Under the pieces are notes generated by a model, which was given only the letters and a program-made list of their open reading frames with translations, had not been told where the DNA came from and did no database searches. 64,000 nucleotides of DNA from Clostridia bacterium (GTDB taxonomy: Bacteria > Bacillota > Clostridia > Lachnospirales > Lachnospiraceae), in contig CAJTDE010000013.1 in NCBI GenBank assembly GCA_910574835.1, positions 1 through 64,000 on the forward strand, in the 5' to 3' direction. Below are positions 21,700 through 48,738 of the stretch, piece by piece; positions within the stretch are counted from its first letter, which is position 1; each line of letters starts with the position of its first letter. The position numbers were made by a program, and so were the translations under genes.

Positions 21700-21781
21700 A
21701 TCATAAGACGGATTTCGTCATTTGTCAACATATTTTTGACTGATTTAATTATTTTTTTATTATTTTTGACCGTTTCAGTCT
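21700..21781 (-). promoter_or_regulatory. Promoter with three phased copies of a 15-bp operator motif
   Basis: TTGACA (21728-21723), 17 bases and TATGAT (21705-21700) form a near-perfect promoter for the TIM-like isomerase and YjbQ genes. The spacer itself is an operator copy: TGACGAAATCCGTCT (21720-21706). Two more copies lie upstream, at 21737-21751 (half-conserved) and 21767-21781 (TGACCGTTTCAGTCT). Start-to-start distances are 31 and 30 bases, three turns of DNA each. Confidence 0.7.
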
Positions 21782-21797
21782 TTAAGATGGTCAAATT

Positions 21798-21835
21798 AAA
21801 AAGCCACGGCATACTAAAATGTACCACGGCTTTTT
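21798..21835 (-). terminator. Terminator after GntR gene 1
   Basis: AAAAAGCC and GGCTTTTT form an 8-bp stem with a further TAC/GTA pairing in the loop. On the reverse strand it ends in a T-run 15 bases after the GntR stop, isolating that gene from the next promoter. Confidence 0.7.
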
Positions 21836-21850
21836 GTATTGAAACTATAA

Positions 21851-22543
21851 TTACAGCAGCACCTTCTTCGAACTCAAGGTATGAGCAACCATCGCTTTGC
21901 TGGCTTCTTCCACATCCTGCTTCCGAATCGCCTCATAGATCCGGTAATGCTCCTCATAGCAATCGTCCAAGATTGTCAGGTATTTGCTGAATCTTTTTAA
22001 ACAGGTTCTATTAATCTCTTCTATCGCCTCAAGGCACGCATACAAAATCGGATTTTTTGCACTTTTTGCCACTTGAAGATGGAAAGAAGTATCCATATAC
22101 TCCACCTGCAACAGATCCTCTGATGCAATTGCCGTTCTTAACCCCTGCAGGATCTTCTCCATCTCCGCCAGCTCTTCTTTGGTCCGCTTTTCCGCCGCCA
22201 TGCTCACTGTTCCGTTTTCTATGTATTCTCTGGCCGAATAAATCGCTTCAATGTCAACATCCTCAAAGTCTATAAGCTGATACAGCGGCTTCATGAACAG
22301 CCCCAAATCCACCTGCTTTACAAAGGTTCCCTTTCCCTGGCGAATATCCAGAATCCCCATCATATTCAACTTCTTGAGCGCCTCTCGTACCGTAATCCGG
22401 CTTACATTAAACTGCTCGCACAAAGTTGACTCATTAGGAAGCTTCTCACCCGTCTTGTAGACGCCGGTTATAATCATTTCCTTTAGCTGTTCTGTTACAA
22501 AATCACATTTTGTTACCCGATATCCGCCTGCCATATATGCCAT
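21851..22543 (-). CDS. FadR-type GntR transcriptional regulator with FCD domain, copy 1
   Basis: This 230-residue regulator has an N-terminal winged helix (recognition helix SRITVREALKKLNMMG near residue 48) and a C-terminal FCD ligand-binding domain. His and Asp residues that bind a metal in FCD proteins are present, for example in MDTSFHLQVAK, YEEHYRIYEA and VAHTLSS. ATG 22543 gives the same length as its paralogue at 32484-33176. A longer frame to 22588 is less likely. The DNA-binding helix is identical in both copies, so they probably read the same operator. It is the last gene after NagB-like copy 1. Confidence 0.92.
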   Translation of the reverse strand: MAYMAGGYRVTKCDFVTEQLKEMIITGVYKTGEKLPNESTLCEQFNVSRITVREALKKLNMMGILDIRQGKGTFVKQVDLGLFMKPLYQLIDFEDVDIEAIYSAREYIENGTVSMAAEKRTKEELAEMEKILQGLRTAIASEDLLQVEYMDTSFHLQVAKSAKNPILYACLEAIEEINRTCLKRFSKYLTILDDCYEEHYRIYEAIRKQDVEEASKAMVAHTLSSKKVLL

Positions 22544-22636
22544 GTCTTTTCGCTCTCCTTTGAGTCCTTCGTAGTTGTTACTCATCAAGCTTATCCTATC
22601 TTAGCTGGCAATAAATGTCAATATCCCCTCTTCCTT

Positions 22637-23611
22637 TTATAATACCGAAAAATCTTTGCCCCCCATATCGCTTGTCCAGCTTCCAAAGGGTTTTGCAATC
22701 CCTTCGCTCACATAGCACACGCCTTTTCCCAAACGCATGATAGACGCCGGACACTCCATAGAAATCGGTCCGTACAGCTCGATCCTGGAAATCATCCGCT
22801 GCCAGGAATCGCCTCCCGGATTCACAAAGCTGTGTATCTCAAACCTTTCTCTTGCATTTACCACATCTCTTGGTCCAATTGTTGCCGCACGCGGCGGAAC
22901 CGCCCATACATCTCCGGATGCTCCCATCGGGGAAAATAATGAATTTTCACAAATTGTAAGCGGAACCTGGGTCGTCAGCCTCGACCCCAGCTTGCAAAAC
23001 TCCTCCAGGGTATCTGCCCGGAACTCTTTTGCACCCGGATCGATAAATGCCGTATGTCCCGGCCAGCCGGTTGCGGAATAGATGACGTCCGCTCCGCCGC
23101 CTCCTGTTTCTTCAATGATAGAGGAGTATACATTGTCTCCTTTATTTTCATTCGTAAATACATGCCAGTGTTCCACGTCCGGGCGGAGATCCTCTCTGAT
23201 CTTTCCGTAAAAATGCTTTCGGAAAGAGAAGCCAAGACCGGCGCCATAGGTCAGCGGAGCAACATTTCCGTCCTGATCCGCCCATTCGTCCATAGCAAAA
23301 GCATCTACATTTCGACAGCTTACATTGTATCGGTTAATCATTTCCGCAACTGCGGAATACACGCCCGGCCACTGGTTTGGAAAAATCATGGTTAAATGCT
23401 TATCTTCCACGTCACTTAAATAGATTCTGTGAAAAATATCCTGGGCCAATATAAGCGTCGGATCTATCACAATCCGCACACTGTATCCATTTTCATTGGT
23501 ATACTCCATATCCTCTCGTTTTATATTTCTTACCCGGTCGAGCATCTCCACATCTCTTGACGGAAGCCAGCTTGCGGGCTGAAAATCAAATTCATAATTA
23601 TTCTTCGCCAT
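22637..23611 (-). CDS. NagB-like sugar-phosphate isomerase/deaminase, copy 1
   Basis: This 324-residue protein of the glucosamine-6-phosphate deaminase fold is longer than ordinary NagB (about 260). FAMDEWADQDG near residue 105 matches the catalytic DE(Y/W) region, SATGWPGHTAFIDPG near 180 matches the ring-opening His/substrate loop, and IGPRDVVNARE near 246 matches the phosphate-binding region. It could deaminate or isomerise an amino-sugar phosphate. It is nearly identical in protein sequence to 34426-35400 (15 differences in 324 by my alignment). AGGAGGT-type binding site GGAGGTAAAAA precedes the ATG. Confidence 0.85.
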   Translation of the reverse strand: MAKNNYEFDFQPASWLPSRDVEMLDRVRNIKREDMEYTNENGYSVRIVIDPTLILAQDIFHRIYLSDVEDKHLTMIFPNQWPGVYSAVAEMINRYNVSCRNVDAFAMDEWADQDGNVAPLTYGAGLGFSFRKHFYGKIREDLRPDVEHWHVFTNENKGDNVYSSIIEETGGGGADVIYSATGWPGHTAFIDPGAKEFRADTLEEFCKLGSRLTTQVPLTICENSLFSPMGASGDVWAVPPRAATIGPRDVVNARERFEIHSFVNPGGDSWQRMISRIELYGPISMECPASIMRLGKGVCYVSEGIAKPFGSWTSDMGGKDFSVL

Positions 23612-23656
23612 TTTTTACCTCCATTTTAAGTTCCGCGCCTTTTCCTGCCAACACTT

Positions 23657-25663
23657 TTATAAACTATAATAAATAACCTGCCCCAGCCGATCCCCTGAAC
23701 CGACAGCCAAACGCTTTCCGTCAGGGCTGACCGCACAGGAGGTTATAATCGGACAATGTATCGAACTATGCGGCGACGGAGAATCATATGTAATATGGCC
23801 GAGCCAGCGCAGGCCGTTTTCTTCGTCATAGGAAAATAATATCCCCATATCGTCCTCATGACCGCCTACGCCGAATACCTTCTTCCCATCCGGCGTCACA
23901 CACAAATCGCGGATAGGGCCGTTGTACACTGCCGGTCCCAGAGAAAAGACCTTTCCGTTTTCACAAACGGCAAGCATCCCATCCTTTGTTCCCGCAATCT
24001 GCTTATCGCCCACCGTAACTGCCGCCGACACAACTGCCTGATACTGCCTTCCCGGATAATAGGGCAGACCGGCAATCTCCGGAAGCCGATTCTTCTTTTC
24101 CATCAATTTCCGATAGCGGTCCGGATCCCGCTCTTTCTCTATAAGCTCCGTAATCTCTCCGTCCACAGTTCGAAACAGATATTCCTTTTCTCCTCCGCAT
24201 ACGCCCAAAATTGTTGTTTCATTTTCCCAGCACAATGCTTTGACCGCGGATTCCTGAATGTGATCCGGCGCCAGTGCACGCCATAATCGGGTGGGAGCGC
24301 TGGCCAGCTCCATCTCAACCTTCCAGTTATTCGCCTCCCCTAATTTATCCTGCTTGTAGAGAAACTCCGCTATTTTATCATAGCGTTCGGTCGTGGGCCT
24401 CTGGCAGTAAGGATCCGTAGTTACGACCATACCAAAATTATGCCTATCCTTCCTATACTGCTTTAAATCTACGGCAGTAATATCCGGGCCGTCCGTAGCA
24501 TGGTTTGTTCCGATGATAAACATAATGTCATCTTTATTAATGCTTATTTCGCTGGTCCAGCAGGCAACACGCTCCTTTGTTCCGATTACTCCCAGCCATT
24601 CCGGTTTTCCCCCTCGGGCAATATCCCAGCGAAACAGTGAGGAAGGCATACCGATTTCCCTGACGCCGCTGTAACAGTTCCGGCTGAACACAGCGTACCA
24701 AAGTACTCCTTCACTGTCAAATTCCATTGCAAAAACGCCGTTGCGCGTTTCTCCATCCGTATGCTTTTCATATCCCGGCATATAATCGCCCATATCTTCA
24801 AAGGTGTTCGTATCGCTGTCATAGGCCACCATATGGCGCCCATAGAAAAAGCACATATACAATCTTCCGTCCGGCCCGATTCCTCCGTTGCTTAAGCCTT
24901 TAAAATCGCCCCCTGTATACTCCGGATAGGTAACAAACGGTATGCGATACTCCAGATCCTGCACTTCCAGAGTTTCCGTATTAATCTTATACATATAACC
25001 GGAACGGGATGCTCCTAAAATATCTCCGTTTTTGTCAAAAAGCAGCCGGAAAGAAAAATTCTCCGCCATCTGGCCAAAGTCAGTCAGCTCTCGATCATCA
25101 AAGGAATAACGATATGTATGTCCCCTCATAAAGCCGGTAAAAAACAATGCATTATGCTTTTTGTCATAAAGCGATCCGTAAATAGATTCATGAGGAACCG
25201 GTATTCCCAGGTTTTCTGCCTTACCGGTCTCCCTGTCATAGATAAGGATGTTGGAACCGGCATAGCCTTCCCACGGATGATGATAGTACGCCCAAGGCAT
25301 CCATGCCGGATGAAGCGGGCTTTTATCCGTCGTATGGGTGGTCATAACCAGACGGCCGTCATTCATCTCACTAATAGAGGTATGAAATTTGCTTGCACGG
25401 ATTGCTTTGTAGGAAGGCATAATTACATCCTCCGCCTTAAAACATTCCGTAACCGTATTCGAATCATAATTATATCTGCACAATCTGGCATAGCCTGCCG
25501 TAGAAAGCTCTGTTGACAGAGAAAAATACAGGTCCCCGTTGCTAATCACTTTAGAGTCCCAAATTGCATTATGCATACTGTCCAACGGAAATATATATTG
25601 CTGCACGCCTGTCTGTGACATAATCTTATAATCTTCCGGTGTCTTAAATAAAAATTCCTTCAT
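23657..25663 (-). CDS. Large cytoplasmic beta-propeller protein of unknown function
   Basis: This 668-residue protein has no signal peptide, so it is cytoplasmic. Repeated segments such as NGGIGPDGRLYMCFF, DSEGVLWYAVF, TPDGKKVFGVGGHEDD and SPDGKRLAVGSGD point to two beta-propeller halves of WD40-like or SMP-30-like blades (about 20-400 and 470-660). It is rich in clustered His and Trp (MTTHTTDKSPLHPAW then YYHHPWEGYAG near 110-130; PSPHSSIHCP near 636), which could be a metal or sugar site. It is encoded between the NagA-like and NagB-like genes and is likely an enzyme or sugar-binding component of the pathway. A polysaccharide-lyase-22-like role is possible but unproven. Confidence 0.75.
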   Translation of the reverse strand: MKEFLFKTPEDYKIMSQTGVQQYIFPLDSMHNAIWDSKVISNGDLYFSLSTELSTAGYARLCRYNYDSNTVTECFKAEDVIMPSYKAIRASKFHTSISEMNDGRLVMTTHTTDKSPLHPAWMPWAYYHHPWEGYAGSNILIYDRETGKAENLGIPVPHESIYGSLYDKKHNALFFTGFMRGHTYRYSFDDRELTDFGQMAENFSFRLLFDKNGDILGASRSGYMYKINTETLEVQDLEYRIPFVTYPEYTGGDFKGLSNGGIGPDGRLYMCFFYGRHMVAYDSDTNTFEDMGDYMPGYEKHTDGETRNGVFAMEFDSEGVLWYAVFSRNCYSGVREIGMPSSLFRWDIARGGKPEWLGVIGTKERVACWTSEISINKDDIMFIIGTNHATDGPDITAVDLKQYRKDRHNFGMVVTTDPYCQRPTTERYDKIAEFLYKQDKLGEANNWKVEMELASAPTRLWRALAPDHIQESAVKALCWENETTILGVCGGEKEYLFRTVDGEITELIEKERDPDRYRKLMEKKNRLPEIAGLPYYPGRQYQAVVSAAVTVGDKQIAGTKDGMLAVCENGKVFSLGPAVYNGPIRDLCVTPDGKKVFGVGGHEDDMGILFSYDEENGLRWLGHITYDSPSPHSSIHCPIITSCAVSPDGKRLAVGSGDRLGQVIYYSL

Positions 25664-25697
25664 TTTTTCTCCCTTTCCATATATGATTATTTTTCTT

Positions 25698-26852
25698 TTA
25701 GACTACAATCTCCCCCTGCAGAATTACTCTTTTTACATGAACCATATCATCAATCAAAATAATATTTGCTGTTTTTCCTGCCTCCAGGCTTCCCACCTGA
25801 TCTTCTATTCCCAAAAGCCTTGCCGGATTCAATGTGGCAAATCGGACAGCATGGCATAAACCATAGCCCGTATGCTTCATAATATTTCTGCATGCATGGT
25901 CCAGCGTCAGATGGCTGCCTGCAAGATGTCCTTCATAGTCATAATTCAAATCCGGCCCATAAGCCACACCATCTTCTTCGTTGTTTGTAAAATTTCCACT
26001 TAACGGCATGGCGTCTGTTATCAAAATAATCCGCTCCACACCCTTTGTTCGGACAACCATTTTGAGCATATCCGGCGCTACATGGATTCCATTCTCATCG
26101 CAAATCAACTCCGCATAAATATCCGGATCATACAAAGTATATTCGTCACATCCTGCTCCTATGGTTCCCTGTGCAAAGCCAGGCGCTTTTCCGGAATCTC
26201 CATGATGCGTTTGCAGGCGCAGCCCGTATTTTTTTATTTTTCTGCAGTCTGCTGCCGAGGCAAAGGAATGTCCCATAGAAAAAATCGCATTGGAATCCTT
26301 CTCATGAACATACCTTATAAATTCTTCAATTCCTTCTCTCGCAGGATCAACCGCCCAGACCTTTGCATAGCCCTTTAATTCTTCAACCAGCGGCGCATAT
26401 TCCTCTTTTTGTATTTTCCCGCCCCACAAAATGTATTTTTGATTGCTTCCATTGCCGTTCATATATGGCCCTTCCATGTAAAGCCCATGCAGTATGCGTC
26501 CGACCCCGGTTTTCGCAGCCTCCCGAACCCGCTTTGCTCCCTCCAGTATCTGTTCTCGATTTAGGCTGCAGTAAAAGGTAGGAAGTATTGTTGTTTCACC
26601 GTGACGGATAAAATGCTCCGCACACTTCAGCGGCTCATCGCAGAACAGCTCCTTCTCCGATCCGTGATTGTGAATATCGATTAATCCGGGGGCCGTATAT
26701 AGCCCTCCGGCGTCCAGTACCTCAGCATCACTCGGAACAGTTATATCCGATGCACTGCTCACTTCAATGATTTTATTCCCTTCATAAAGCAGGATTCCGT
26801 CCCAGATGATGCCATCTGCCAGAATCAGCTTTGTATTGACAATTGCTTTCAA
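25698..26852 (-). CDS. NagA-like N-acetylglucosamine-6-phosphate deacetylase, copy 1
   Basis: This 384-residue amidohydrolase removes an N-acyl group from an amino-sugar phosphate. Motifs are GLIDIHNHGSE (HxH) near residue 55, YMEGPYMNG near 124, SMGHSFASA near 195, LQTHHGDSG near 217, CDENGIHV near 257, and ILITDAMPLSG with the catalytic Asp near 283. I place the start at TTG 26852, with GAGGG eight bases upstream, because the paralogue begins at the same residue. ATG starts further up would overlap the permease 2 gene. Confidence 0.88.
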   Translation of the reverse strand: MKAIVNTKLILADGIIWDGILLYEGNKIIEVSSASDITVPSDAEVLDAGGLYTAPGLIDIHNHGSEKELFCDEPLKCAEHFIRHGETTILPTFYCSLNREQILEGAKRVREAAKTGVGRILHGLYMEGPYMNGNGSNQKYILWGGKIQKEEYAPLVEELKGYAKVWAVDPAREGIEEFIRYVHEKDSNAIFSMGHSFASAADCRKIKKYGLRLQTHHGDSGKAPGFAQGTIGAGCDEYTLYDPDIYAELICDENGIHVAPDMLKMVVRTKGVERIILITDAMPLSGNFTNNEEDGVAYGPDLNYDYEGHLAGSHLTLDHACRNIMKHTGYGLCHAVRFATLNPARLLGIEDQVGSLEAGKTANIILIDDMVHVKRVILQGEIVV

Positions 26853-26895
26853 TTTGTTTACCCTCGTTCTCCGTAAAAAAAATAATACTTTATTT

Positions 26896-27888
26896 TTACT
26901 TTTGTCTGCGCCTGTTCGCCTCATCAATTGCTACGGAAATAACCATAATTGCACCAATTAAAACATTCTGCAGATTTGCATCAACTGCAAATAAGGTCAA
27001 CGCGTTGGCAATCAATGCCATCAGCAATATTCCAAGAAATGTTCCGGCAATTGACCCTTCTCCTCCATTCAGTGATACGCCGCCAATCAACAGCGCAGAT
27101 ATCACACGAAATTCAACTCCCTGACCTAATGACGCGGGTGCCGATCCATAACGGGAAATGGAAAGAACGCCTGCAAGCGCTGCAAAAAAGCCGATGAGAA
27201 TATAAAGAACATAAACGAATTTCGTTACGTTAATACCCGAAATCCGGGCAGATTCCTTATTGGACCCAATAAAATATGCCTGATGAAAAAAGGATACATA
27301 TTTTAATAATAAGGATGCGGTAACCGTTACAATCAGCATAACAACAATTAGAATCGGTATTCCAAAAACACTTCCCTCCTGGACAATATTTTTAAACGCC
27401 ACAGGAAAGTTTGACAGCGCACGGGAATTAATGATCATCAGTCCCACGCCTTTAAAGGTCATCCAGGTTCCCATTGTTGCAATCATGGGCAGAACCTTTA
27501 AATTTACAATAATAAACGCATTTAACGCACCGATTACACAGCCTACAAGCAATCCCCCGGCAATACTTACCGGAATACTATAGCCGGCATTCAGCAGCAG
27601 ACCACATACAAATGCGGAACACCCCATATTGGACCCAACCGAAAAATCCGTATTGCCTGCAATAAGAGATATTGTCAAAAAGGCTCCGATAATCATATCT
27701 GTCGCCATATAATTTCCAATTATCCGCACATTGGCTGTCGTCAAAAACTGCTGATGATTTAATGCCATAAAAACGGCAAGCAGCATAACCAAAAGAAAAA
27801 TTACAATTTCACGTATTTCAAAAATCCGCTTCAGGACCGTACGAGCATTGCTTCTCCCTCTGTTCTGAGTTTTCGTTAAATCACTCAT
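26896..27888 (-). CDS. Sugar ABC transporter permease (system 2)
   Basis: This 330-residue RbsC-type permease has eight to ten membrane segments. The motifs SLIAGNTDFSVGSNMGCSAF near residue 78 and IGGVSLNGGEGSIAGTFLGI near 268 are typical. Its start overlaps the stop of ATPase 2 by four bases. It precedes the NagA-like gene. Confidence 0.95.
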   Translation of the reverse strand: MSDLTKTQNRGRSNARTVLKRIFEIREIVIFLLVMLLAVFMALNHQQFLTTANVRIIGNYMATDMIIGAFLTISLIAGNTDFSVGSNMGCSAFVCGLLLNAGYSIPVSIAGGLLVGCVIGALNAFIIVNLKVLPMIATMGTWMTFKGVGLMIINSRALSNFPVAFKNIVQEGSVFGIPILIVVMLIVTVTASLLLKYVSFFHQAYFIGSNKESARISGINVTKFVYVLYILIGFFAALAGVLSISRYGSAPASLGQGVEFRVISALLIGGVSLNGGEGSIAGTFLGILLMALIANALTLFAVDANLQNVLIGAIMVISVAIDEANRRRQK

Positions 27889-29402
27889 GTCTCACTCTCC
27901 TTTGTATCAATTGTCAGGCCCGAAGTCTGGGCCATAATACGCTCCTCCGTAATTTGTTCCAATTTAAGCTGACCGGAAATTCTTCCCTCATACATGGATA
28001 CAATTCGATCAGATGCCCCTATTAGCTCCGGCATATCTGAGGAAACCATAATAACCCCCATTCCCTGTTTTGCAAAATCACGAATCAGACGGTGGATTGC
28101 CTCCTTAGTGCCCACATCAATTCCCCGTGTGGGTTCGTCAATCAATAAAATCTGCGGCTTACGGCTAATCCACATGGAAAGCAGCACCTTCTGCTGATTG
28201 CCTCCTGAAAGCTGGGATACTTTTTTGTCCACATCCGGCGTTTTAATCTGAAATTTTTCCCTGTACTCCATTGCACTGCTCCGTGCCGCCTGAAACTGCA
28301 TAAGTCCTTTTCGGGTAAATCGGTCTACATTGGCTGCCAGCACATTATCCGCAATCGACATTCGCAGATATAAGCCTTTATTTTTCCTGTCTTTTGTAAG
28401 ATAAGCAAGACCATTGGCTTTTGCGGCCTCCGGCGAAGAAATCCGAATCTCCTCTCCTTCCAGGAAAATCTTTCCCTCTTGTGCATGGCAGATTCCAAAC
28501 AGGCACTCAAGAACTTCCGTCCTTCCGGCTCCCTCCAGGCCCGCCAAACCAAGAACTTCTCCCCGGTGGAGAGAAAACGAAACATTTTTAACTTCTTTTT
28601 TATATGTTAAATTTTCTACACGAAGCAGCTCTTCTCCGATTTCATTGCTTCCTGCCCCATACTGATAAACAACGTCACGGCCAACCATGTATTTTACCAG
28701 CTCATCCTTGCTTGTATTTTCTACCGCAAGTGTCTTGATATATTGACCATCCCGCATAATTGTAACCGTATCGCATATCTGAAAAATCTCTTCTAACCTG
28801 TGAGAAATATAAATAATAGAAACGCCTTCTTTATTAAGCGTGCGCATAATTTCCATCAAAACCTCTGTTTCCCGTTCCGTCAATGCTGATGTAGGCTCGT
28901 CCAAAATCAGCACCTTTGCATTTTGTTTTACCGCACGCAAAATCTCGATAATCTGCTGCCGTCCAACGCTCAAGTTTCGTATGGTGGCCTTTTCATCTAT
29001 ATCCGTAAATCCATAAGTGTCCAGAAGCTTACGCACCTCTTTATGCATCTTTCGGTAATTGATAAATCCGGCCTTATTTTTGGGAGGATTTGTCGTAAAT
29101 ACATTTTCACTTACCGTAGTTGTTGGAAAAACGGATAATTCCTGATAAACAATGCTGATGCCTTTACGCTCCGCGTCAATGGGATTGGCAATCCTCTCCG
29201 GTATGCCATCCAGAATAATCTGACCCGTGTCCGGTGTATATACACCGGACAGTACCTTCATTAATGTGGATTTTCCTGCGCCGTTTTCCCCGATAAGCGC
29301 ATGGATGCTCCCGCGTTTCAGGAAAAACTGCATATTATCCAAAGCCTTTACACCAGGAAATTCCTTTGTAATACCTTTCAATTGAAGTATATAGTCTTTC
29401 AA
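27885..29402 (-). CDS. Sugar ABC transporter ATP-binding protein, two domains (system 2)
   Basis: This RbsA/MglA-type double ATPase has Walker A GENGAGKST and LSVGRQQIIEI in the first half, and a degenerate GLEGAGRTE, LSGGNQQKVLLS and LLIDEPTRGIDVG in the second. An ATG lies at 29465, but the first 20 codons from it look non-coding and include a hairpin. TTG 29402 has GAGGG eight bases upstream and gives 505 residues, matching its paralogues (503 and 493). Confidence 0.93.
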   Translation of the reverse strand: MKDYILQLKGITKEFPGVKALDNMQFFLKRGSIHALIGENGAGKSTLMKVLSGVYTPDTGQIILDGIPERIANPIDAERKGISIVYQELSVFPTTTVSENVFTTNPPKNKAGFINYRKMHKEVRKLLDTYGFTDIDEKATIRNLSVGRQQIIEILRAVKQNAKVLILDEPTSALTERETEVLMEIMRTLNKEGVSIIYISHRLEEIFQICDTVTIMRDGQYIKTLAVENTSKDELVKYMVGRDVVYQYGAGSNEIGEELLRVENLTYKKEVKNVSFSLHRGEVLGLAGLEGAGRTEVLECLFGICHAQEGKIFLEGEEIRISSPEAAKANGLAYLTKDRKNKGLYLRMSIADNVLAANVDRFTRKGLMQFQAARSSAMEYREKFQIKTPDVDKKVSQLSGGNQQKVLLSMWISRKPQILLIDEPTRGIDVGTKEAIHRLIRDFAKQGMGVIMVSSDMPELIGASDRIVSMYEGRISGQLKLEQITEERIMAQTSGLTIDTKESET

Positions 29403-29432
29403 AAGAGAATCCCTCCCTCCTGATTTACAGCC

Positions 29433-29450
29433 GGCCCCGTCACCGGGGCC
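29433..29450 (-). terminator. GC-rich hairpin between SBP 2 and ATPase 2
   Basis: GGCCCCG and CGGGGCC form a perfect 7-bp stem with a 4-base loop. With no T-tract it probably stabilises or attenuates the mRNA after the binding-protein gene. Confidence 0.6.
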
Positions 29451-29468
29451 AGCATCATCCGGCATATT

Positions 29469-30530
29469 TTATTTATCCGCATAGTTGAAGTCCAGGAAAT
29501 AATCTACATTGTCCTGATTGATTACCAAAGAACCCGTATCTACGAAGTTTGGTGCAATCAGCAGATTTGCAACCATATCATCGTTTGAAAATGCCGACTT
29601 GGGTCCGTGGTTAAAGTCATAACAGATTTTTGTTCCGTAATAAACCTCCGTATACTGCTTGCCTGCAACAGTAGAATAAATATCACCGTTTTTCACATAC
29701 TCTAAAGTTGCACTGTCTCTGTCAATGGAAATAATCTTCACCTTATCTCCCATTCCTGCCTCTTTTACCGCCGTAACAGCACCAACAGCCGAGGGCGCCT
29801 GACATCCGATAATAACTGCCGTATTTGGATTTGCAAGAAGCGCCGCACCAATCTTTGTTGCCGCAACAGCAGCATCTGACTGATCATCTACCTCTGCTAC
29901 AATTTTCATATTGGGGTACTTCTCTATCTGAGTGTGGATACCGGTCATAATTTCCTCCGCTGCAGAGGAACCGGCGGAAAGTGCCTGAGATATAATAACC
30001 TCACCGCTTTCATTTACAGCCTCCGCTGCCTGGTCAAGCATCATCGCACCATACGTCACATAATCGCTGCCAAGACAGGTAAGTCTTCTGGAGTTCGATA
30101 CATCCTGCCCTACATTAACTACCGGAATCCCTTTTTCCCATGCCATTTCATAGTACGGCTCATACGCCTCCGGGAAATGCCCCGGCATAATAATGCCTGC
30201 TGTTGTAGGATCGTTGATTGCGGTTTCCAAAATTGCACACATGGCATCTGCCTCCAGGCCGTCATCACCCAGGAATTTTGCCGTTACCCCCAGCTCCGCG
30301 CAGGCATCCTCCAGACCTACCCGATATGCCTGCCAATATTCGAGATTTGCCAACGGACACATGAACACATACGTTTCGTCTGCCTTGGCCTCTGCTTCTC
30401 CGCCTGCCTCTTCCCCTTGTTCACCAGTCGGAGCATCTGTGACAGGCGCATTGTTTTTTTGTGCGCAGCCTGCAAAAAGACTTGTCATAAGCACTACTGT
30501 TAAAACCAATCCCAATACCTTTTTCATCAT
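29469..30530 (-). CDS. Sugar ABC transporter substrate-binding lipoprotein (system 2)
   Basis: This 353-residue ribose-type binding protein has a lipoprotein signal with the lipobox LFAGC, then an acidic linker. The body has the features MCPLANLEYWQAYRVGLED and IISIDRDSATLEYVKNGD seen in the Peripla_BP_4 family. It heads ABC system 2 (binding protein, ATPase, permease) and follows two amidohydrolase genes. Confidence 0.92.
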   Translation of the reverse strand: MMKKVLGLVLTVVLMTSLFAGCAQKNNAPVTDAPTGEQGEEAGGEAEAKADETYVFMCPLANLEYWQAYRVGLEDACAELGVTAKFLGDDGLEADAMCAILETAINDPTTAGIIMPGHFPEAYEPYYEMAWEKGIPVVNVGQDVSNSRRLTCLGSDYVTYGAMMLDQAAEAVNESGEVIISQALSAGSSAAEEIMTGIHTQIEKYPNMKIVAEVDDQSDAAVAATKIGAALLANPNTAVIIGCQAPSAVGAVTAVKEAGMGDKVKIISIDRDSATLEYVKNGDIYSTVAGKQYTEVYYGTKICYDFNHGPKSAFSNDDMVANLLIAPNFVDTGSLVINQDNVDYFLDFNYADK

Positions 30531-30559
30531 GTTCCCTCCTTGTTTTTCTTGTGAATTAT

Positions 30560-31327
30560 TTAGTTGTTATTTAATAAATTGCACGCATTCCCGTACAAAA
30601 TACCTTCTATATCTGTTCCTCCTGCCGCTTCCATAAGCCCATCCAGACGATCCTGTATTAAAGTCCGAGCCATTGCCGCATCCTGACCAAAGCAATAATC
30701 AGAGCCGAACAAAATTTTTTCACGCTTAACTTTGCTCAGTATTTCTCGAATACTGCCAATGGTATTCCCCACAAGGCAAAGGTAAATATTATCCAGCTCC
30801 TGACTGGCTCCGATGGCTGTCCGATAGGAGTCATAAAGACCGGCGTGCCCCAATATTACTGGCACTCTCGGATACCGCTCTGCCAATCCTGCAATCTGGG
30901 ACGTATCCGCATATGGCGGCGTGCCATCGTGGAACAATACCGGAAGATGATACCGCTCTGCCGTCTCCATCACTTCATACATAATTGGATGATGAATGGC
31001 AAAACCCTGAATCCAGCTATGTATTTTGATCCCCTTAAATCCATACCCCTCCACGCACTGCCGTATCTCGTCTCTGCAGTGATCCGCGCCCCGAAATACA
31101 TCAAGAGCGGCAAATCCAACCAACTGAGCAGGATAATTCTTTACATAATTTTCATAAAGCTCCCGGTTATACTTCGTGTCATCCAGAGCTATTGCGCTGC
31201 AGTGGCTCAGCCAAATCTGGCTAATCTGATACTGCTCCATAGAAGCAAGTATCTCTTCTGCTGATATTGTGAATCGAGACCCCAGCGGATATCCCGGCCC
31301 CATCACATGCCCATGTGTATCTATCAA
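30560..31327 (-). CDS. Amidohydrolase-2-family hydrolase
   Basis: This 255-residue TIM-barrel metal hydrolase keeps the full metal site: MIDTHGHVMGPG (HxH) at residues 1-12, FHDGTPPY near 135, ILGHAGL near 158, and LFGSDYCFG with the catalytic Asp near 208. Such enzymes act on lactones, decarboxylate, or cleave amides. The neighbour at 31370 has lost the equivalent residues. The pair is co-transcribed with ABC system 2, so the substrate is probably an imported compound or its product. Confidence 0.88.
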   Translation of the reverse strand: MIDTHGHVMGPGYPLGSRFTISAEEILASMEQYQISQIWLSHCSAIALDDTKYNRELYENYVKNYPAQLVGFAALDVFRGADHCRDEIRQCVEGYGFKGIKIHSWIQGFAIHHPIMYEVMETAERYHLPVLFHDGTPPYADTSQIAGLAERYPRVPVILGHAGLYDSYRTAIGASQELDNIYLCLVGNTIGSIREILSKVKREKILFGSDYCFGQDAAMARTLIQDRLDGLMEAAGGTDIEGILYGNACNLLNNN

Positions 31328-31369
31328 AGGCGTTTCACCTCCTGTTTCTTAAATATAATTGTCAAAGCC

Positions 31370-32101
31370 TTAAAGCTTCATTACCCCGCGAATGGTCCTG
31401 CCGAAGATATCCTCCAAAAGCTCCGGGTCCTCAACCCCTTTCTCTACTCTGGCTATCTCATAAGATAATGTGCTGCGAGGCGAGGCGCTTCCGAATACCA
31501 TGCGGTCCGGGGCGTTGACTGCCATTGCCTGAATGGATACGGTCAGATTCAAGCTGGTATCCAGCAGAATATTTGGACATCCATGAAGAGCCGGAAGCGC
31601 ATCCCCAGCAAAATCATTGGCGCCGCTGTGTCCCATGATAAATGTCACCTCCGGAAAGCGCTTTGCCAAAAAATGCAGCTGAAACGGAAGCGCAAAGGCT
31701 GGGGTTCCCGTATGGAAATAGACCGGCGCCCGGTGCAGACCGCAAATCTCTATCAGCGGATACACCAACTCATCACTGATACAAAAGCCCTGTATGGAGG
31801 AATCAAAGTATACGGCTTTCATGCCATCATCCAGAGCGCGCTTCAATTCTTCCCGCGCCTTCTCTCCATACCACGGATTGCTTACCGCATATCCGGAAAA
31901 TCGTTTGGGATACTGCCGGCAGATATCGGCAATCATTTGATTCCCCTCTCTGTTGTATACGGCCGTATACTGCTTGGAGGGCGCTATAAACGCATGATCC
32001 ACTCCGTTCTCATCCATTTCCCCAAGAAGCCTTTCCGCTGTCTGACTGCCATCTATATCCTCGCCTAAAAAATTGATAACATCTATTCGCTCTATTTGTA
32101 T
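31370..32101 (-). CDS. Degenerate amidohydrolase-2-like protein with no standard start codon
   Basis: The protein from residue 29 on (ATG 32017) is clear amidohydrolase-2 sequence. The family N-terminus also reads in frame upstream: IDVINFLGEDIDG, where relatives have an HxH motif, here changed to Ile and Phe. The late metal Asp is also lost (MVFGSASP instead of GSD-P). No ATG, GTG, TTG or CTG exists in the 28 upstream codons after the stop at 32104-32102. The position with a ribosome binding site (GAGGTG) is an ATA at 32101. It may be a pseudoenzyme started from a non-canonical codon, a gene with a mutated start, or it may begin at 32017. Confidence 0.75.
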   Translation of the reverse strand: MQIERIDVINFLGEDIDGSQTAERLLGEMDENGVDHAFIAPSKQYTAVYNREGNQMIADICRQYPKRFSGYAVSNPWYGEKAREELKRALDDGMKAVYFDSSIQGFCISDELVYPLIEICGLHRAPVYFHTGTPAFALPFQLHFLAKRFPEVTFIMGHSGANDFAGDALPALHGCPNILLDTSLNLTVSIQAMAVNAPDRMVFGSASPRSTLSYEIARVEKGVEDPELLEDIFGRTIRGVMKL

Positions 32102-32123
32102 TCACCTCGCTTTGCATCAAAAC

Positions 32124-32138
32124 ATAATATCATATGAT
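32124..32138. promoter_or_regulatory. Palindromic motif shared with the ABC-3 leader (ATCATAYGATATKAT)
   Basis: On the reverse strand it reads ATCATATGATATTAT, matching 40059-40073 (ATCATACGATATGAT) in 13 of 15 positions. It lies in the 5' leader, about 50 bases after the predicted start. It is nested in a longer inverted repeat with arms ATCAAAACAT and ATGTTTTGAT (32116-32146). Confidence 0.6.
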
Positions 32139-32195
32139 GTTTTGATTTATGTTATATTTTGCTTCTTTAAAGAATCAAACTGTTGACTTGATTTT

Positions 32196-32224
32196 ATATT
32201 AGGACAATTAGATAATTTTGTCAA
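32196..32224 (-). promoter_or_regulatory. Promoter of the amidohydrolase and ABC-2 operon
   Basis: On the reverse strand, TTGACA (32224-32219), 17 bases, then TAATAT (32201-32196). It reads into the genes at 32101 and below. The phased operator-like repeats at 32233-32278 lie just upstream of its -35 box. Confidence 0.75.
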
Positions 32225-32232: not shown

Positions 32233-32338
32233 TGACTTTTTCAGTCAAATTTTTGTTATTTTTTGACTGATTCGGTTTTTTATCTTACTGTTTTATTTTT
32301 AAAGAGTTTCTTTTGAAATATTTTGACAGAACCATTCA
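32233..32338. promoter_or_regulatory. Phased operator-like repeats upstream of the ABC-2 operon
   Basis: Two clear copies of the 15-bp motif lie at 32233-32247 (TGACTTTTTCAGTCA) and 32264-32278 (TGACTGATTCGGTTT), 31 bases apart. A weaker copy is at 32324-32338, 60 bases further on. The same motif and spacing occur upstream of the TIM-like isomerase (21706-21781), and once in the promoter at 48710-48738. Confidence 0.65.
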
Positions 32339-32483: not shown

Positions 32484-33176
32484 CTACATCAATACCTTCT
32501 TTGAACTCAATGTGTGCGCTGTCATTGCTTCGCCGGCTCCTTTGATATCCTGATTTTGGATTGCCTCATAGATTCGGTAATGCTCCTCATAACAGTCGTC
32601 CAAGATGGTCAGATATTTGCTGAATCGCTTCAGGCAGGTTCTGTTGATCTCCTCTATGGCCTCCAGGCTGGCGTAAAGAATCGGATTCCTTGCGCACTCC
32701 GCCACTTTCAGATGAAACGTGCTGTCCAAATATTCTACCTGTACCAGATTTTCCGATGCGATGGCCAGCTTTAAATTTTTCAAAATCTTCTCCAGCTCTA
32801 TTAAATCTTTATCTGTCCGCTTTTTTGCCGCCATGCCGGCTGTGCCGTTCTCAATATACTCTCTTGCGGAATAGATGCACTCAATATCCACATCCTCAAA
32901 GTCTATCAGTTGATAGAGGGGTTTCATAAACAGACCCAGGTCCACCTGATTGACAAAGGTTCCCTTTCCCTGGCGGATATCCAGTATTCCCATCATATTC
33001 AGCTTTTTTAAGGCTTCTCTGACCGTGATCCGGCTCACGCCGAAGTGCTCGCAGAGCGCGGCTTCATTGGGCAGCTTTTCGCCTGCTTTGTAGACTCCTG
33101 TTATAATCATTTCCTTTAACTGCTCTGTTACGAAGTCGCATTTTGTTACTTTGTATCCGCCAGCTATGTATGTCAT
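32484..33176 (-). CDS. FadR-type GntR transcriptional regulator with FCD domain, copy 2
   Basis: This 230-residue paralogue of 21851-22543 has an identical recognition helix (SRITVREALKKLNMMG). The winged-helix region differs at about ten positions, and most of the remaining differences lie in the FCD domain, so the two may bind the same DNA but different ligands. It is the last gene after ABC system 3, cyclase, NagB-like 2 and NagA-like 2. The operator array at 32233-32338 lies directly downstream of it, mirroring copy 1. Confidence 0.92.
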   Translation of the reverse strand: MTYIAGGYKVTKCDFVTEQLKEMIITGVYKAGEKLPNEAALCEHFGVSRITVREALKKLNMMGILDIRQGKGTFVNQVDLGLFMKPLYQLIDFEDVDIECIYSAREYIENGTAGMAAKKRTDKDLIELEKILKNLKLAIASENLVQVEYLDSTFHLKVAECARNPILYASLEAIEEINRTCLKRFSKYLTILDDCYEEHYRIYEAIQNQDIKGAGEAMTAHTLSSKKVLM

Positions 33177-34382: not shown

Positions 34383-34425
34383 CCTATTCACCTCCTGTCG
34401 CATCCGGATAGCAAAATCGTCATAA

Positions 34426-35400: not shown

Positions 35401-35441
35401 TTTTATTCTCCTCAAATTCAATTTCACTCGTCTTTCTTTAT

Positions 35442-36122: not shown

Positions 36123-36139
36123 GACTTCTCTTCCTATTC

Positions 36140-36241: not shown

Positions 36242-36254
36242 TTTGCTTTTTATA

Positions 36255-36283
36255 TTTCGAGGCAGCTCAACGCTGCCCCGAAA
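36255..36283 (-). terminator. Hairpin after SBP 3
   Basis: TTTCGAGGCAGC and GCTGCCCCGAAA form a stem with a 5-base loop, ten bases after the SBP 3 stop. No T-tract follows on the reverse strand, so it is more likely a stabiliser or attenuator. Confidence 0.55.
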
Positions 36284-36293
36284 GTATTTTCTA

Positions 36294-37361: not shown

Positions 37362-37437
37362 CTTTTTTCCTCCTTAAAATTTAATATGCAATTAACTGCG
37401 TACACCCGCAATTAAGGCCCTAAGCTTTTCGTGCATA

Positions 37438-38919
37438 TCAAATGCACATATTCATTACCTTTTCCTGCGTTGCTTCCTCCGAGGAAAGCTCGCCTGCCAA
37501 TCTGCCTTCATGAAGCACCAGAATCCGATCGCTGATTCCGAGCACCTCCGGCAATTCCGACGAGATCACAATCATTGTTTTTCCCTGTTTTACCAATTCG
37601 CAAATCAGATCATAAATCTCTCTTTTGGCTCCCACGTCAATTCCTCTTGTGGGTTCATCCATAATCAGGATTTCGCTGTCCCGATAAAGCCATTTTGCAA
37701 TTACAACCTTTTGCTGGTTTCCTCCCGATAAGTACTGTACCTCCGTATCAATGGAAGGTGCCGCAACCCTTAGAGTTTTCACATGCTCCCTGGCATACTG
37801 GCTCTCCAGCCTGTCATTTACAATTCCACGAGCCGAAATCCTGCCAAAATCCGTCATACAGATATTGGACTTGATGGGGAAGATCTGTGTACTTCCCTGC
37901 TGCTTCCGATCCTCCGGCACCAATCCGAATCCATCCTGAATCGCTTCCCGGAAATCCTTATACTTAACCTTCTTACCTCTTAAATAGACATCTCCACTGT
38001 CAACCGCATCTATTCCCAAAATTCCCCGCATCAGTTCTGTTCTGCCCGCGCCTACCAGTCCGGCAATTCCAAGAATCTCACCCTTTCGCAATTCAAAGCT
38101 GATATTTTCAAAAACGCCCTTTCGCGTCAGCTTTTCCACCTTTAAGAGCACTTCTCCCGGTGTAATTTCAGATCGCGGATATTCCATATTGACTGTCCGC
38201 CCTACCATCATATTTACCAGGGCGTCTTTATCTATTTCCTCTGTTCGAAGCGTTCCGATATGCTTCCCGTCCCGCAGCACGCTTAATTCATCCGAAAGAT
38301 TAAAAACCTCTTCCATCCGGTGGGATATATAAATAATAGTTACTCCGTCCTTTTTCAGCTTGGCGATAATTCCAAACAGTACATCCAACTCTTTGTTTGT
38401 GAGCGTAGCGGACGGCTCGTCCATAATCAGAATCTTACATTCCGCCACAATGCTTTTGCAGATTTCCACAATCTGCTTTTGCGCAACGGTTAAGGTTTCT
38501 ACCGGCAGGGTTACATCCAGCTTCACATTAAGCTCATCTACCATCTCCTGAGCCTTTCGGTTCATGGCCTTCCAATCAATCAGGCCCAGCTTTGTGCGAA
38601 GTGGTTTTCCAAGAAAAATATTTTCCGCTATACTCAGCGGTTCTGACAGCTTCAGCTCTTGATGGACGACGCTAATTCCTTTTTGTTTTGACATCTGGGG
38701 AGATTCAAAGACCTCTTTTTTTCCCGATATCCAAACCTCGCCTTCATATTTCGTATAGATACCTGCTAAAATTTTTATTAATGTAGACTTTCCGGCCCCG
38801 TTTTCACCGACAATCGCATGTACATGACCCTCTTTAATCGAGAATGATACATCGTCAAGTGCTTTTACACCGGGAAACGATTTGGAAACATGTCTAACCT
38901 CTAAAATGGTCTGTGCCAT
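37438..38919 (-). CDS. Sugar ABC transporter ATP-binding protein, two domains (system 3)
   Basis: This 493-residue RbsA/MglA-type double ATPase has Walker A GENGAGKST, LTVAQKQIVEIC, ILIMDEPSATL, then GLVGAGRTE, LSGGNQQKVVIA and ILIMDEPTRGIDVG in the second half. It has the usual operon position between permease and binding protein. A short repeat fragment lies just upstream. Confidence 0.95.
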   Translation of the reverse strand: MAQTILEVRHVSKSFPGVKALDDVSFSIKEGHVHAIVGENGAGKSTLIKILAGIYTKYEGEVWISGKKEVFESPQMSKQKGISVVHQELKLSEPLSIAENIFLGKPLRTKLGLIDWKAMNRKAQEMVDELNVKLDVTLPVETLTVAQKQIVEICKSIVAECKILIMDEPSATLTNKELDVLFGIIAKLKKDGVTIIYISHRMEEVFNLSDELSVLRDGKHIGTLRTEEIDKDALVNMMVGRTVNMEYPRSEITPGEVLLKVEKLTRKGVFENISFELRKGEILGIAGLVGAGRTELMRGILGIDAVDSGDVYLRGKKVKYKDFREAIQDGFGLVPEDRKQQGSTQIFPIKSNICMTDFGRISARGIVNDRLESQYAREHVKTLRVAAPSIDTEVQYLSGGNQQKVVIAKWLYRDSEILIMDEPTRGIDVGAKREIYDLICELVKQGKTMIVISSELPEVLGISDRILVLHEGRLAGELSSEEATQEKVMNMCI

Positions 38920-38957
38920 TAATCCACCTCCATTCCAGTTCCGTAATAACCCATAAG

Positions 38958-39941
38958 TTAATTTTTAACCCGGTTTCTCAGTACATCAATTGCGATTGCA
39001 ATAATCAGAACCGCGCCCTTCACTACATCCTGAACAAAGGGGTTGACATTCAACTGCGTCATCCCGTTAAACAGCACCATCAGGAAGATTACTCCAAATA
39101 ATGCTTGCACCACCTTTCCCTTGCCGCCTGACAGACTGATTCCGCCAAGAACACATCCGATTACCGCGTCAAATTCATAGGCATTTCCGCTTGATATGGT
39201 TACGGCATTTAACCTGGACAATAATACAACTGCTCCGACACCGACACACGCTCCTGCCATTACATAGCTGATAAGAGTATATTTCTTTACGGAAATTCCG
39301 GAAAAATAAGCCGCCTCCTCATTCCCTCCTATGGAATAAATGTATCTCCCCAATACTGTTTTTTTAGCCACAAAGGACGCCAAAACAAACATTAAGATCA
39401 TAATCACCGCACTGACCGGAACGATTCCAAACAAGTAGCCTCTTCCCAAAAAGGATATTTCAGAAGAAACATTGGAAATGGTTGCTGACTTAGAAAGAAT
39501 CTTGGCCATTCCGGTACAGATATTCATAACTCCCAAGGTTGCAATAAATGTAGGGATTCTTACAATCGCTACTAATATTCCATTTATCAGGCCGATAAAC
39601 ATTGCAGTGGCAATGCACAGGAGCAGGCCAAGCCACGGGTTTATACCAAAATCTTTAATCAAAATGGCTGCCACATAGCTTGACAGGCACACATTCTGTC
39701 CCAAAGAAAGATCCAGATTCCCGCCCAGCATGATAAACGCCTGCCCTATGGCAACAATCGCAACAGTGGCGCTTTGGAGCAGTATTGTCATAAAATTATT
39801 TGCCGTAAAGAAATATTTTGACGAGAAGCTAAATACCAAAACAATAATCAAAAGCGCTATTAGTATCATATATTCTTTACTCAGTTTTTTCATAAATCCA
39901 TAAATTTTGTTTTCAGTTCCTTTTACATTTGCCTCAGACAT
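38958..39941 (-). CDS. Sugar ABC transporter permease (system 3)
   Basis: This 327-residue RbsC-type permease has eight to ten membrane segments and the motifs QAFIMLGGNLDLSLGQNVCL and LGGISLSGGKGKVVQALFGV. It is the first gene of a seven-gene reverse-strand operon (permease, ATPase, SBP, cyclase, NagB-like, NagA-like, GntR). A 195-base leader separates it from its promoter at 40143-40170. Confidence 0.95.
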   Translation of the reverse strand: MSEANVKGTENKIYGFMKKLSKEYMILIALLIIVLVFSFSSKYFFTANNFMTILLQSATVAIVAIGQAFIMLGGNLDLSLGQNVCLSSYVAAILIKDFGINPWLGLLLCIATAMFIGLINGILVAIVRIPTFIATLGVMNICTGMAKILSKSATISNVSSEISFLGRGYLFGIVPVSAVIMILMFVLASFVAKKTVLGRYIYSIGGNEEAAYFSGISVKKYTLISYVMAGACVGVGAVVLLSRLNAVTISSGNAYEFDAVIGCVLGGISLSGGKGKVVQALFGVIFLMVLFNGMTQLNVNPFVQDVVKGAVLIIAIAIDVLRNRVKN

Positions 39942-40058
39942 TTTTTACCTCCAACCTTTTGTATTGATATACGACCGCTGTGTAAAGCTTCTTCTACCTT
40001 TCATCATTTGTAACTCAACCGCTCACTATTCTTCCTTTCCAAACCTCCCTTATGAATT

Positions 40059-40073
40059 ATCATATCGTATGAT
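40059..40073. promoter_or_regulatory. Palindromic motif in the ABC-3 leader (ATCATAYGATATKAT)
   Basis: ATCATA-TCG-TATGAT has perfect 6-base arms. On the reverse strand it reads ATCATACGATATGAT, about 65 bases into the predicted transcript. The only close match in the window is at 32124-32138, in the leader of the ABC-2 operon. Confidence 0.6.
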
Positions 40074-40134
40074 GTTTTTTCTTTTACTGCACTTATTCCC
40101 GATTTTTCGCTCCGGTTTTTTATTTATTATTTTT

Positions 40135-44908: not shown

Positions 44909-44965
44909 TCTATCTCTTTTTTGTAAGAATCAAAATATTGCAGACAAACTATATTCTATTTTAAC

Positions 44966-45008: not shown

Positions 45009-45037
45009 TTCTTGTATTTTTATAAGTCCAAAGGATA

Positions 45038-47553: not shown

Positions 47554-47569
47554 AAGACCTCCTACTCTA

Positions 47570-47634
47570 AGTCGCTGCGCGACGGCACTAAAGGGTAAAG
47601 TCGCTTCGGCACACCTGTAATGAGAGAAACTTTT
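47570..47634 (+). repeat. Dispersed repeat family 2, copy A
   Basis: Sequence begins AGTCGCTGCGCGACGGCACT (containing the small palindrome GTCGCTGCGCGAC), then AAAGGGTAAAG and ends ACCTGTAATGAGAGAAAC. A 64-base match with few changes lies at 48431-48496; part recurs inverted at 50716-50765. It sits between the DeoR and epimerase-like genes. Confidence 0.75.
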
Positions 47635-47641
47635 ACGGCGC

Positions 47642-48415
47642 TTAGACCTCCGCCGTCAAGACCTCCATCCCGAAGCCTTCCAGCTGTGCCCGTATCTTTG
47701 AGTCAATCCGGCTGTCCGTTACAATGCGATCCACATCGGCAAAATCCGCATATCCCACCTGGGCGCAGGCGGAAAACTTATCGGAGTCGCAGAGTATCAT
47801 AACCTCGTTGGAATTGCGCATGGCCATCTCATCCATCCGGGCCGTATCAAAATCCGTAGTTGTAAAGTACTGCTTCATATCACAGCCGTCTGTCCCCAGA
47901 AAGCATTTTGTAAAATGAACCTTTGAGATGGCAAGCTCCGCCAGATAGCCGCTGAAATCCTTTCTATTCGCCCGATATTCCCCACCTATCAGCGTAATGG
48001 GCATACTGGGAGACAAAATCTCAAAATTCGCCAGGGAGTTCGTGTAAACACGCAGGTCAAAAGGCTTTTCCTCCATTCGGTGGGCCAGCTCCATGCAGAA
48101 GCATAAAACTGTTGTACCCACATCACAGAATATAACGTCTCCGTCCTGCAGCAAATCGCACGCCTTTACTCCAATTGCGTTCTTTTCTTCGATTTTGCTC
48201 TTCACCACCTGTTCAAAGGAATATTCCTGAGGATTCTTGACCGGCAGCTGGATTCCTCCGTGAATCCTTATAAGCTTTCCCTCTGCCTCCAATCTGGAAA
48301 AAAGACGCCTTGCTGTGGATTCCGAGATATCAAGAAACTCTACGACATCCGCAAGCTCCAGCCTTCCCTTAATTCTCAGCCTGTTCATCAGGGCTTGTTC
48401 TCGATTATAATTCAT
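47642..48415 (-). CDS. DeoR/GlpR-family transcriptional regulator
   Basis: This 257-residue regulator has an N-terminal winged helix (residues 5-58) with the motif ARRLFSRLEAEGKLIRIHGG, and a C-terminal sensor domain with DVGTTVLCF near residue 97 and VYTNSLANFEI (phosphosugar-binding). It is the first gene of the DeoR, epimerase, FGGY kinase operon. Repeats of family 2 lie on both sides. Confidence 0.92.
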   Translation of the reverse strand: MNYNREQALMNRLRIKGRLELADVVEFLDISESTARRLFSRLEAEGKLIRIHGGIQLPVKNPQEYSFEQVVKSKIEEKNAIGVKACDLLQDGDVIFCDVGTTVLCFCMELAHRMEEKPFDLRVYTNSLANFEILSPSMPITLIGGEYRANRKDFSGYLAELAISKVHFTKCFLGTDGCDMKQYFTTTDFDTARMDEMAMRNSNEVMILCDSDKFSACAQVGYADFADVDRIVTDSRIDSKIRAQLEGFGMEVLTAEV

Positions 48416-48430
48416 ACATCCTCCTATAAA

Positions 48431-48552
48431 AGTCGCTGTGCGACGGCACTAAAGGGTAAAGCTGCTTCGACACACCTGTAATGAGAGAAACTTTTATTCG
48501 AAAAAGCACTCTTAAAAGTTCCTCTCGTGCGCCTTTGCAGCTTTACCGTCCA
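48431..48552 (+). repeat. Dispersed repeat family 2, copy B, with inverted partner
   Basis: 48431-48496 matches copy A. The next 56 bases hold an inverted version of its second half (AAAAGTTCCTCTC, then GCAGCTTTACCGTC), so the whole can fold as a long hairpin, like a MITE. It lies in the 340-base gap before the amidohydrolase gene at 48803. Confidence 0.75.
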
Positions 48553-48709
48553 GCAGAAATTTTTTCTAATAAATACTTGATATTTCTTAGCCGGACCGGT
48601 ATATCACCCATATAAGGCAAAATGAGTATAACTGCCCTTTTTACAGATAGTATAACATGAAAACTTCTATTTGTACACCCCATTTTGCTTGTTTCACTCA
48701 TTTTTATAT

Positions 48710-48738
48710 TGACTAATGACCGAATCAGTCTTAAAATG
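48710..48738 (+). promoter_or_regulatory. Promoter with internal operator for the amidohydrolase at 48803
   Basis: TTGACT (48710-48715), 17 bases, TAAAAT (48733-48738). The operator motif TGACCGAATCAGTCT (48718-48732) fills the spacer. The same layout occurs at 21700-21728, where the operator also fills the spacer. A repressor here would block RNA polymerase. Confidence 0.75.

Follow-up and report, generated by a model that had tools for sequence, protein, structure and literature searches.

A sugar island in a gut Lachnospiraceae genome raises the question of which protein reads a short palindrome that recurs, evenly spaced, at three of its promoters. The window analyzed here, a stretch of 64 kb, is part of a 115-kb contig of the genome designated G000. 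Its island encodes ABC sugar transporters, NagA- and NagB-like proteins, amidohydrolases, a TIM-like isomerase with YjbQ, and an FGGY kinase, along with two DeoR-family regulators (DeoR1 and DeoR2), a ROK protein, and two FCD-GntR proteins (GntR1 and GntR2). The original prediction was that a motif, TGACYG-N3-CRGTCA, links three operons of the island and is read by a GntR protein. The shared element holds up, as phased, operator-like sites at all three promoters, but GntR as its reader does not, and the likely reader is DeoR1.

Phased operator-like sites at three promoters

A conserved, phased, operator-like array is present at three promoters of the window, all with good sigma-70-type boxes: one at 21.7 kb before the TIM-like and YjbQ genes, one at 32.2 kb before an ABC/NagA-like operon, and one before an amidohydrolase gene (Table 1). 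We refer to the copy in the promoter spacer as O1 and to the copies upstream as O2 and O3. The window holds two O2-O3 pairs (21737/21767 and 32233/32264) and one O2-O1 pair (48686/48717). The spacings of 31, 30, 31, and 60 bp first reported are correct, as are the placement of a copy within the 17-bp promoter spacer at 21706-21720 and 48717-48731 and the position of the 32233 and 32264 copies upstream of the -35 box (TTGACA, 32219-32224). The coordinates 21737, 21767, 32233, and 32264 also stand; the copy placed at 48718 was off by one, its true register being 48717-48731, the copy at 21706 is weak, and a further copy at 48686-48700, exactly 31 bp upstream of 48717, had been overlooked.

As a description of these sites, TGACYG-N3-CRGTCA proved too strict. 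Counted over the 12 fixed letters of the pattern (TGACYGNNNCRGTCA), mismatches number 4 at 21706 (minus strand), 3 at 21737, 1 at 21767, 1 at 32233, 2 at 32264, 2 at 32324, and 10 at 48718, falling to 1 in the corrected register, and the 64-kb window contains no exact match. With up to 2 mismatches, the window has 10 matches, compared with a mean of 4.33 in 100 shuffles, one of which reached 10. Two probes were set aside. The literal motif (up to 1 mismatch) found 37 places per strand in the genome versus 21 for the reversed pattern and is too degenerate, while the strict composite TTGACNNNTGANYGNNNCRNTCNTA (up to 2 mismatches) found four places in the genome and none for its control, namely the 48709 promoter with no mismatch and three others with 2, and missed the 21.7-kb promoter. 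The copy at 32324, which scores 11.4 bits with a matrix from other genomes, was rejected as an array member, as it lies outside the conserved offsets. Judged from the sequence, the motif taken alone is weak, and it is conservation and phasing that argue for the arrays.

Conservation of the palindrome and its spacing

Arrays were studied in eight genomes: G000, four of the same genus (G012, G007, G004, and G009), and three of another genus of the family (G352, G790, and G791). The island is rearranged in G012 and G007, whose upstream regions, read by eye, carry TGANYGWWWCRNTCA in the promoter spacer (O1) and a further copy immediately before the -35 box (O2). The same element is found in the other five relatives, with a weak O1 in G790 and G791. 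Comparison with the seven relatives gives a 15-bp palindrome, TGANYG-WWW-CRNTCA, laid out with O1 at the 17-bp spacer, O2 30-32 bp upstream, and sometimes O3 near 62 bp.

In all 17 promoters compared across the eight genomes, O2, allowing up to 2 mismatches, precedes the O1 position by 30-32 bp: by 31 bp in 12 cases, 32 bp in four, and 30 bp in one. Over offsets of 15-88 bp, other copies occur at 53 (one), 61 (one), 62 (six), and 71 bp (one). A third copy thus stands at 61-62 bp in 7 of the 17, and in three of these (the ABC operon of G004 and both G009 promoters) it is the O1 of the opposite promoter, with a single central O2 lying between two divergent promoters in G004 and G009. The geometry is common to unlike promoters in two genera, those of the TIM and amidohydrolase genes, two kinds of ABC operon, a DUF4432 operon, and an FGGY-kinase operon. 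These promoters were chosen by eye or by scans matching O1/O2, and the consensus was first drawn from G000, G012, and G007; the tally therefore describes the geometry and does not test it. Beyond the 17, reading found no site upstream of TIM in G009 and G790, upstream of the kinase and DeoR1 genes in G004 and G009, after the GntR gene in G012, or in the glycyl-radical/NagA regions of G000 and G007, and eight of these regions, scanned again, gave a best score of 6.6 bits.

For the scan of the 115-kb contig, a matrix was trained on 27 distinct sites, all taken from the other seven genomes and none from G000. The array sites of the window rank 1, 2, 3, 5, 6, and 7, and rank 4 (21158) falls inside a gene. 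Three pairs at 30-32 bp were found in the 115 kb, all at the three promoters, versus none in 200 Markov sequences at 10 and 11 bits; at 9 bits, 200 such sequences gave a mean of 0.01 and a largest count of 1. A composite pattern of O2 plus promoter, allowed up to 1 mismatch, gave nine matches (seven distinct O2 sites) in six of the eight genomes with DeoR1 and in none of 12 others, all nine within the island stretches that carry DeoR1. At up to 2 mismatches, it matched 44 places in 14 of the 20 genomes, with 10 for the control, and 13 of the 44 belong to one dispersed repeat in G007; only the nine closer matches were used. The weaker arrays of G790 and G791 were found by reading.

Alternatively, the arrays could be A/T-rich UP-like promoter elements that resemble operators by chance and have no dedicated regulator. 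A/T tracts do lie between the sites, and a single site exceeds chance only weakly, but promoters of unlike kinds in two genera repeat both the palindromic TGA...TCA positions and the 30-32-bp phasing, and the composite matches with up to 1 mismatch are confined to genomes with DeoR1, which makes this explanation highly improbable.

DeoR1 as the predicted reader

DeoR1 has an N-terminal HTH_DeoR domain (PF08220, 44.2 bits; cut-off 21) and a C-terminal DeoRC sensor domain (PF00455, 131.1 bits; cut-off 31.8), and it matches the NCBIfam GlpR, SrlR, and AgaR profiles, all below their equivalog cut-offs. A sequence search of the PDB with DeoR1 gave no match at 0.01. Orthologs of 61-94% identity, called at thresholds of 1e-80 in the genus and 1e-70 in the other genus, were found in all eight array genomes and in none of the other 12, and the recognition helix SEST[AV]RRLF is common to all eight. 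Array presence thus tracks the presence and absence of DeoR1, as expected for a DeoR1 regulon. In G015, which has the TIM gene, we found no DeoR1, no close GntR, and no array pair.

The position of the gene agrees with its occurrence. DeoR1 lies no more than about 5 kb from an array in every array genome. In G000, G007, and G012, it is transcribed divergently from an array promoter; in G004 and G009, the array is followed by four ABC-transporter genes and then DeoR1, about 5 kb away; and in the other genus, DeoR1 precedes the array by 0.3 kb (G790) or about 2 kb (G352 and G791). Taken together, these comparisons of sequence and gene order make DeoR1, in place of GntR, the likely reader of the arrays.

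Several observations weigh against this reading of the arrays as a DeoR1 operator. O1 is strong at only one of the three window promoters (17.3 bits at 48717, 2.9 at 21706, and -17.9 at 32.2 kb), and two of the three would therefore depend on O2 and O3. Individual sites are weak: the first matrix gave 14.9 for the best real site but up to 16.06 in 30 Markov runs, and 21158, 27321, and 48883 also score well though they are not at array promoters. The 10-bit pair test passes six of the eight islands and misses G790 and G791, where O1 scores 6.4 bits. The tally and the matrix test are not fully independent, given the selection of promoters and the orthology among them, and no copy precedes TIM in G009 and G790. 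The motifs of RhaR, another DeoR-family regulator that controls carbohydrate operons via repeated sites, are imperfect direct repeats with a 10-11-bp periodicity, whereas the island arrays are palindromes at three-turn spacing (PMC3870299). Lastly, DeoR2 homologues of at least 60% identity (60-95%) are present in the same eight genomes, so co-occurrence is not exclusive to DeoR1.

This last point raises DeoR2, an AgaR-like protein, as the possible reader, all the more as it is encoded within the island in G000, G004, G007, G009, and G012. In G352, G790, and G791, however, four DeoR2 copies lie on other contigs, and no array pair was found around them (L109-L112) or in the DeoR2 stretch of G009 (L113), by a test that does not pick up the weak arrays of G790 and G791 either. 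Upstream of DeoR2 itself in G000, G012, G007, and G004, even the closest match has at least 3 mismatches, homologues of 47-48% identity in G003 and G008 occur without arrays, and it is DeoR1 that lies within about 5 kb of an array throughout. DeoR2 is therefore unlikely, although it is disfavored only by position.

The GntR proteins and a second palindrome

GntR1 and GntR2 owe their candidacy to adjacency: their genes stand directly upstream of two of the three arrays. One or both were proposed to bind the TGA arrays, as a repressor at two promoters and in some other way at the third, and their identical recognition helices were taken to suit this role. The helices are weak evidence for shared array reading because the two proteins are paralogues of 82% identity. 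According to the gene order, GntR1 and GntR2 end operons that start from about 32.2 and 40.1 kb, and the array after each GntR gene therefore marks the promoter of the operon that follows. Five of the eight array genomes (G004, G009, G352, G790, and G791) have no close GntR, with best matches of 27-37% identity, whereas all eight have DeoR1; close homologues (68-82% identity) were found only in G000, G007, and G012 among the 20 genomes. At 1e-45, GntR2 matched one of 397 genomes of the family (G000 itself) and two of 391 of the class. No array pair was found at the GntR-bearing loci L025 (55% identity), L031 (a 60-residue match), and L050 (39%), in short stretches from genomes where DeoR1 was not sought.

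The form of the site also argues against GntR. The array palindrome differs from the TKGT/ACMA consensus given for the FadR subfamily in PMC4494728, a paper that also names exceptions to this core, such as BioR. The best matches to TKGT-N2/3-ACMA at the array sites have 1-2 mismatches and are off-centre from the sites, although the -35 boxes at 21722 and 32218 are each overlapped by a TKGT-N2-ACMA match with one mismatch. Different action at the 32.2-kb promoter need not be assumed, because O2 and O3 stand at the usual offsets (31 and 62 bp) and only O1 is missing; the sign of control may still differ there, as repression by upstream sites alone is not evident without O1. The GntR operons, moreover, have a different palindrome in common, and binding of the arrays by either GntR protein is very unlikely.

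This second palindrome, AAACATMATAYSRTATKATGTTT, was found with up to 3 mismatches at four places in the scanned island stretches: 32120 and 40055 of the window contig, 17921 in G012, and 11830 in G007. Each copy lies in the leader of a presumed operon ending in a GntR gene (in G007, the intervening genes are not all identified), and the distances, taken between the first bases of the -10 box and of the palindrome, are 46, 59, and 71 in the three cases measured. The pattern, whose consensus was built from these same sites, has no match at up to 3 mismatches in the islands of the five genomes without a close GntR or in 10 Markov sequences. At L025, L031, and L050, with their more distant GntR proteins, the best match has 8 mismatches of 23, and L025 covers only about 200 bases upstream of GntR. 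The palindrome is A/T-rich. GntR1 shares the GntR and FCD domains of the FadR/FCD subfamily; by inspection, the TKGT/ACMA core is absent from this palindrome as it is from the arrays (PMC4494728), and co-occurrence is what ties it to GntR. We consider the chance that GntR1 and GntR2 bind it to be about even.

The gene runs at 22637-32017 and 33216-39941 contain paralogous NagA-like, NagB-like, ABC-transporter, and GntR genes and perhaps reflect a duplication. G007 and G012 each have a single close GntR, versus the two paralogous runs in the window.

A model of control and its relation to known systems

We infer the binding, oligomeric state, effector, and sign of control of DeoR1, as well as the whole role of GntR. 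DeoR1 would bind copies of the 15-bp palindrome TGANYG-WWW-CRNTCA that share one face of the DNA and follow one another at intervals of three helical turns (30-31 bp): O1 in the -35/-10 spacer, O2 three turns upstream of it, and O3 six. The copies might be bound cooperatively, by a tetramer or by dimers side by side. Protein on O1 would deny RNA polymerase access to the promoter, and the signal that releases DeoR1 may be a sugar-phosphate from the island. By analogy with its family, DeoR1 is probably a repressor. The predicted co-regulated set comprises the amidohydrolase gene, the TIM/YjbQ genes, and the ABC/NagA-like operon. In a second layer, GntR1 and GntR2 would act through the other palindrome, which they would bind in the leaders of the operons whose last genes encode them. 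Both kinds of site occur together in the 32.2-kb operon only.

DeoR1 has the same HTH_DeoR and DeoRC domains as the DeoR-family sugar regulators GlpR, SrlR, and AgaR. Other known DeoR-family members typically have RRDL in the recognition helix, where DeoR1 has SEST[AV]RRLF. Compared with these regulators, the island differs in that a 15-bp palindrome repeats at 30-32-bp intervals and one of its copies occupies the promoter spacer. Palindromic sites have been reported for some DeoR-type regulators (PMC2222622). The predicted regulon would be new, and the kind of regulation is already known. No described match to this operator appeared in the titles and abstract openings searched, which is weak evidence, as most subscription journals lie outside that coverage.

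A broader reading, which we offer tentatively, is that palindromes phased at three turns act as a ruler for a DeoR subclass whose recognition helix has diverged. O1 would lie in the promoter, O2 and O3 in line upstream, and the central O2 of G004 and G009 would serve two divergent promoters at once; the GntR layer, with its own operator, would have been added only in the part of the lineage with NagA/NagB-like operons. For an uncharacterized sugar island of gut Lachnospiraceae, the analysis supplies a predicted regulon (regulator, operator, spacing, and target operons) and corrects the regulator assignment suggested by simple adjacency. Because the 31-bp geometry is nearly fixed across unlike promoters, cooperative binding by a DeoR-family protein can be tested directly on short DNA fragments.

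Features and setting of the island

Table 1. Coordinates of the promoters, sites, and genes discussed, numbered from the first base of the window.
Feature	Position	Strand	Basis or remark
Promoter TTGACA-17-TATGAT, before TIM-like/YjbQ genes	21700-21728	-	Sequence; same promoter in G012, G007, G004
-35 TTGACA; -10 TATGAT of the 21.7-kb promoter	21723-21728; 21700-21705	-	Sequence
O1 position in spacer, TGACGAAATCCGTCT	21706-21720	-	Weak, 2.9 bits; position kept in three related genomes
O2, 31 bp upstream of O1	21737-21751	-	Reading and matrix
O3, 61 bp upstream of O1	21767-21781	-	Reading and matrix
Promoter TTGACA-17-TAATAT of presumed operon Amidohydro_2/ABC/NagA-like/GntR1	32196-32224	-	Sequence
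O1 position of 32.2-kb promoter	32202-32216	-	Decayed, -17.9 bits; matrix
O2, 31 bp upstream of O1 position	32233-32247	-	Reading and matrix
O3, 62 bp upstream of O1 position	32264-32278	-	Reading and matrix
O2 of amidohydrolase promoter	48686-48700	+	Reading and matrix
Promoter TTGACT-17-TAAAAT of amidohydrolase gene	48709-48737	+	-35 TTGACT 48709-48714; -10 TAAAAT 48732-48737
O1 in amidohydrolase promoter spacer	48717-48731	+	17.3 bits; same position in G012, G007, G004, G009
DeoR1, proposed array reader	47642-48415	-	Pfam HTH_DeoR and DeoRC; ortholog in 8/8 array genomes
Amidohydro_2 gene, divergent from DeoR1	48803-49843	+	
TIM-like isomerase gene, after 21.7-kb array	20964-21665	-	
Amidohydro_2 gene, first listed ORF (open reading frame) after 32.2-kb array	31370-32017	-	
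GntR1 (GntR and FCD domains), last gene of presumed operon from 32.2 kb	21851-22543	-	Unlikely array reader
GntR2 (FCD), last gene of presumed operon from 40.1 kb	32484-33176	-	Unlikely array reader
DeoR2, AgaR-like, second DeoR-family protein	51445-52239		
Candidate GntR palindrome AAACATCATATGATATTATGTTT, leader of GntR1 operon	32120-32142	-	
Candidate GntR palindrome AAACATCATACGATATGATAATT, leader of GntR2 operon	40055-40077	-	

Other features of the window were recorded alongside the arrays. Two YjbQ-family paralogues (20418-20912 and 49948-50568) are 42% identical, and one adjoins the TIM-like gene; the YjbQ/TIM neighborhood recurs in the six relatives whose retrieved stretch includes the TIM gene. 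Between DeoR1 and the amidohydrolase gene, TGAGAGAAACTTTTATTCGAAAAAGCAC at 48482-48509 resembles a dispersed repeat in G007, with 13 near-identical places among those listed, and is possibly REP- or MITE-like. Rfam at gathering thresholds gave no match at the arrays or palindromes. Upstream of the methionyl-tRNA synthetase gene (58640-60592, minus strand) is a T-box leader at 60643-60888 (RF00230, minus strand). A TadA/VirB11-like ATPase gene (11051-12232, in the region 7308-13254) has neighbors that are kept beside the island in G012, G007, G004, and G009 and may belong to a Tad-type pilus cluster. At the window edge (1-811, minus strand) are a partial 16S rRNA gene (1-356) and a tRNA gene (723-811).

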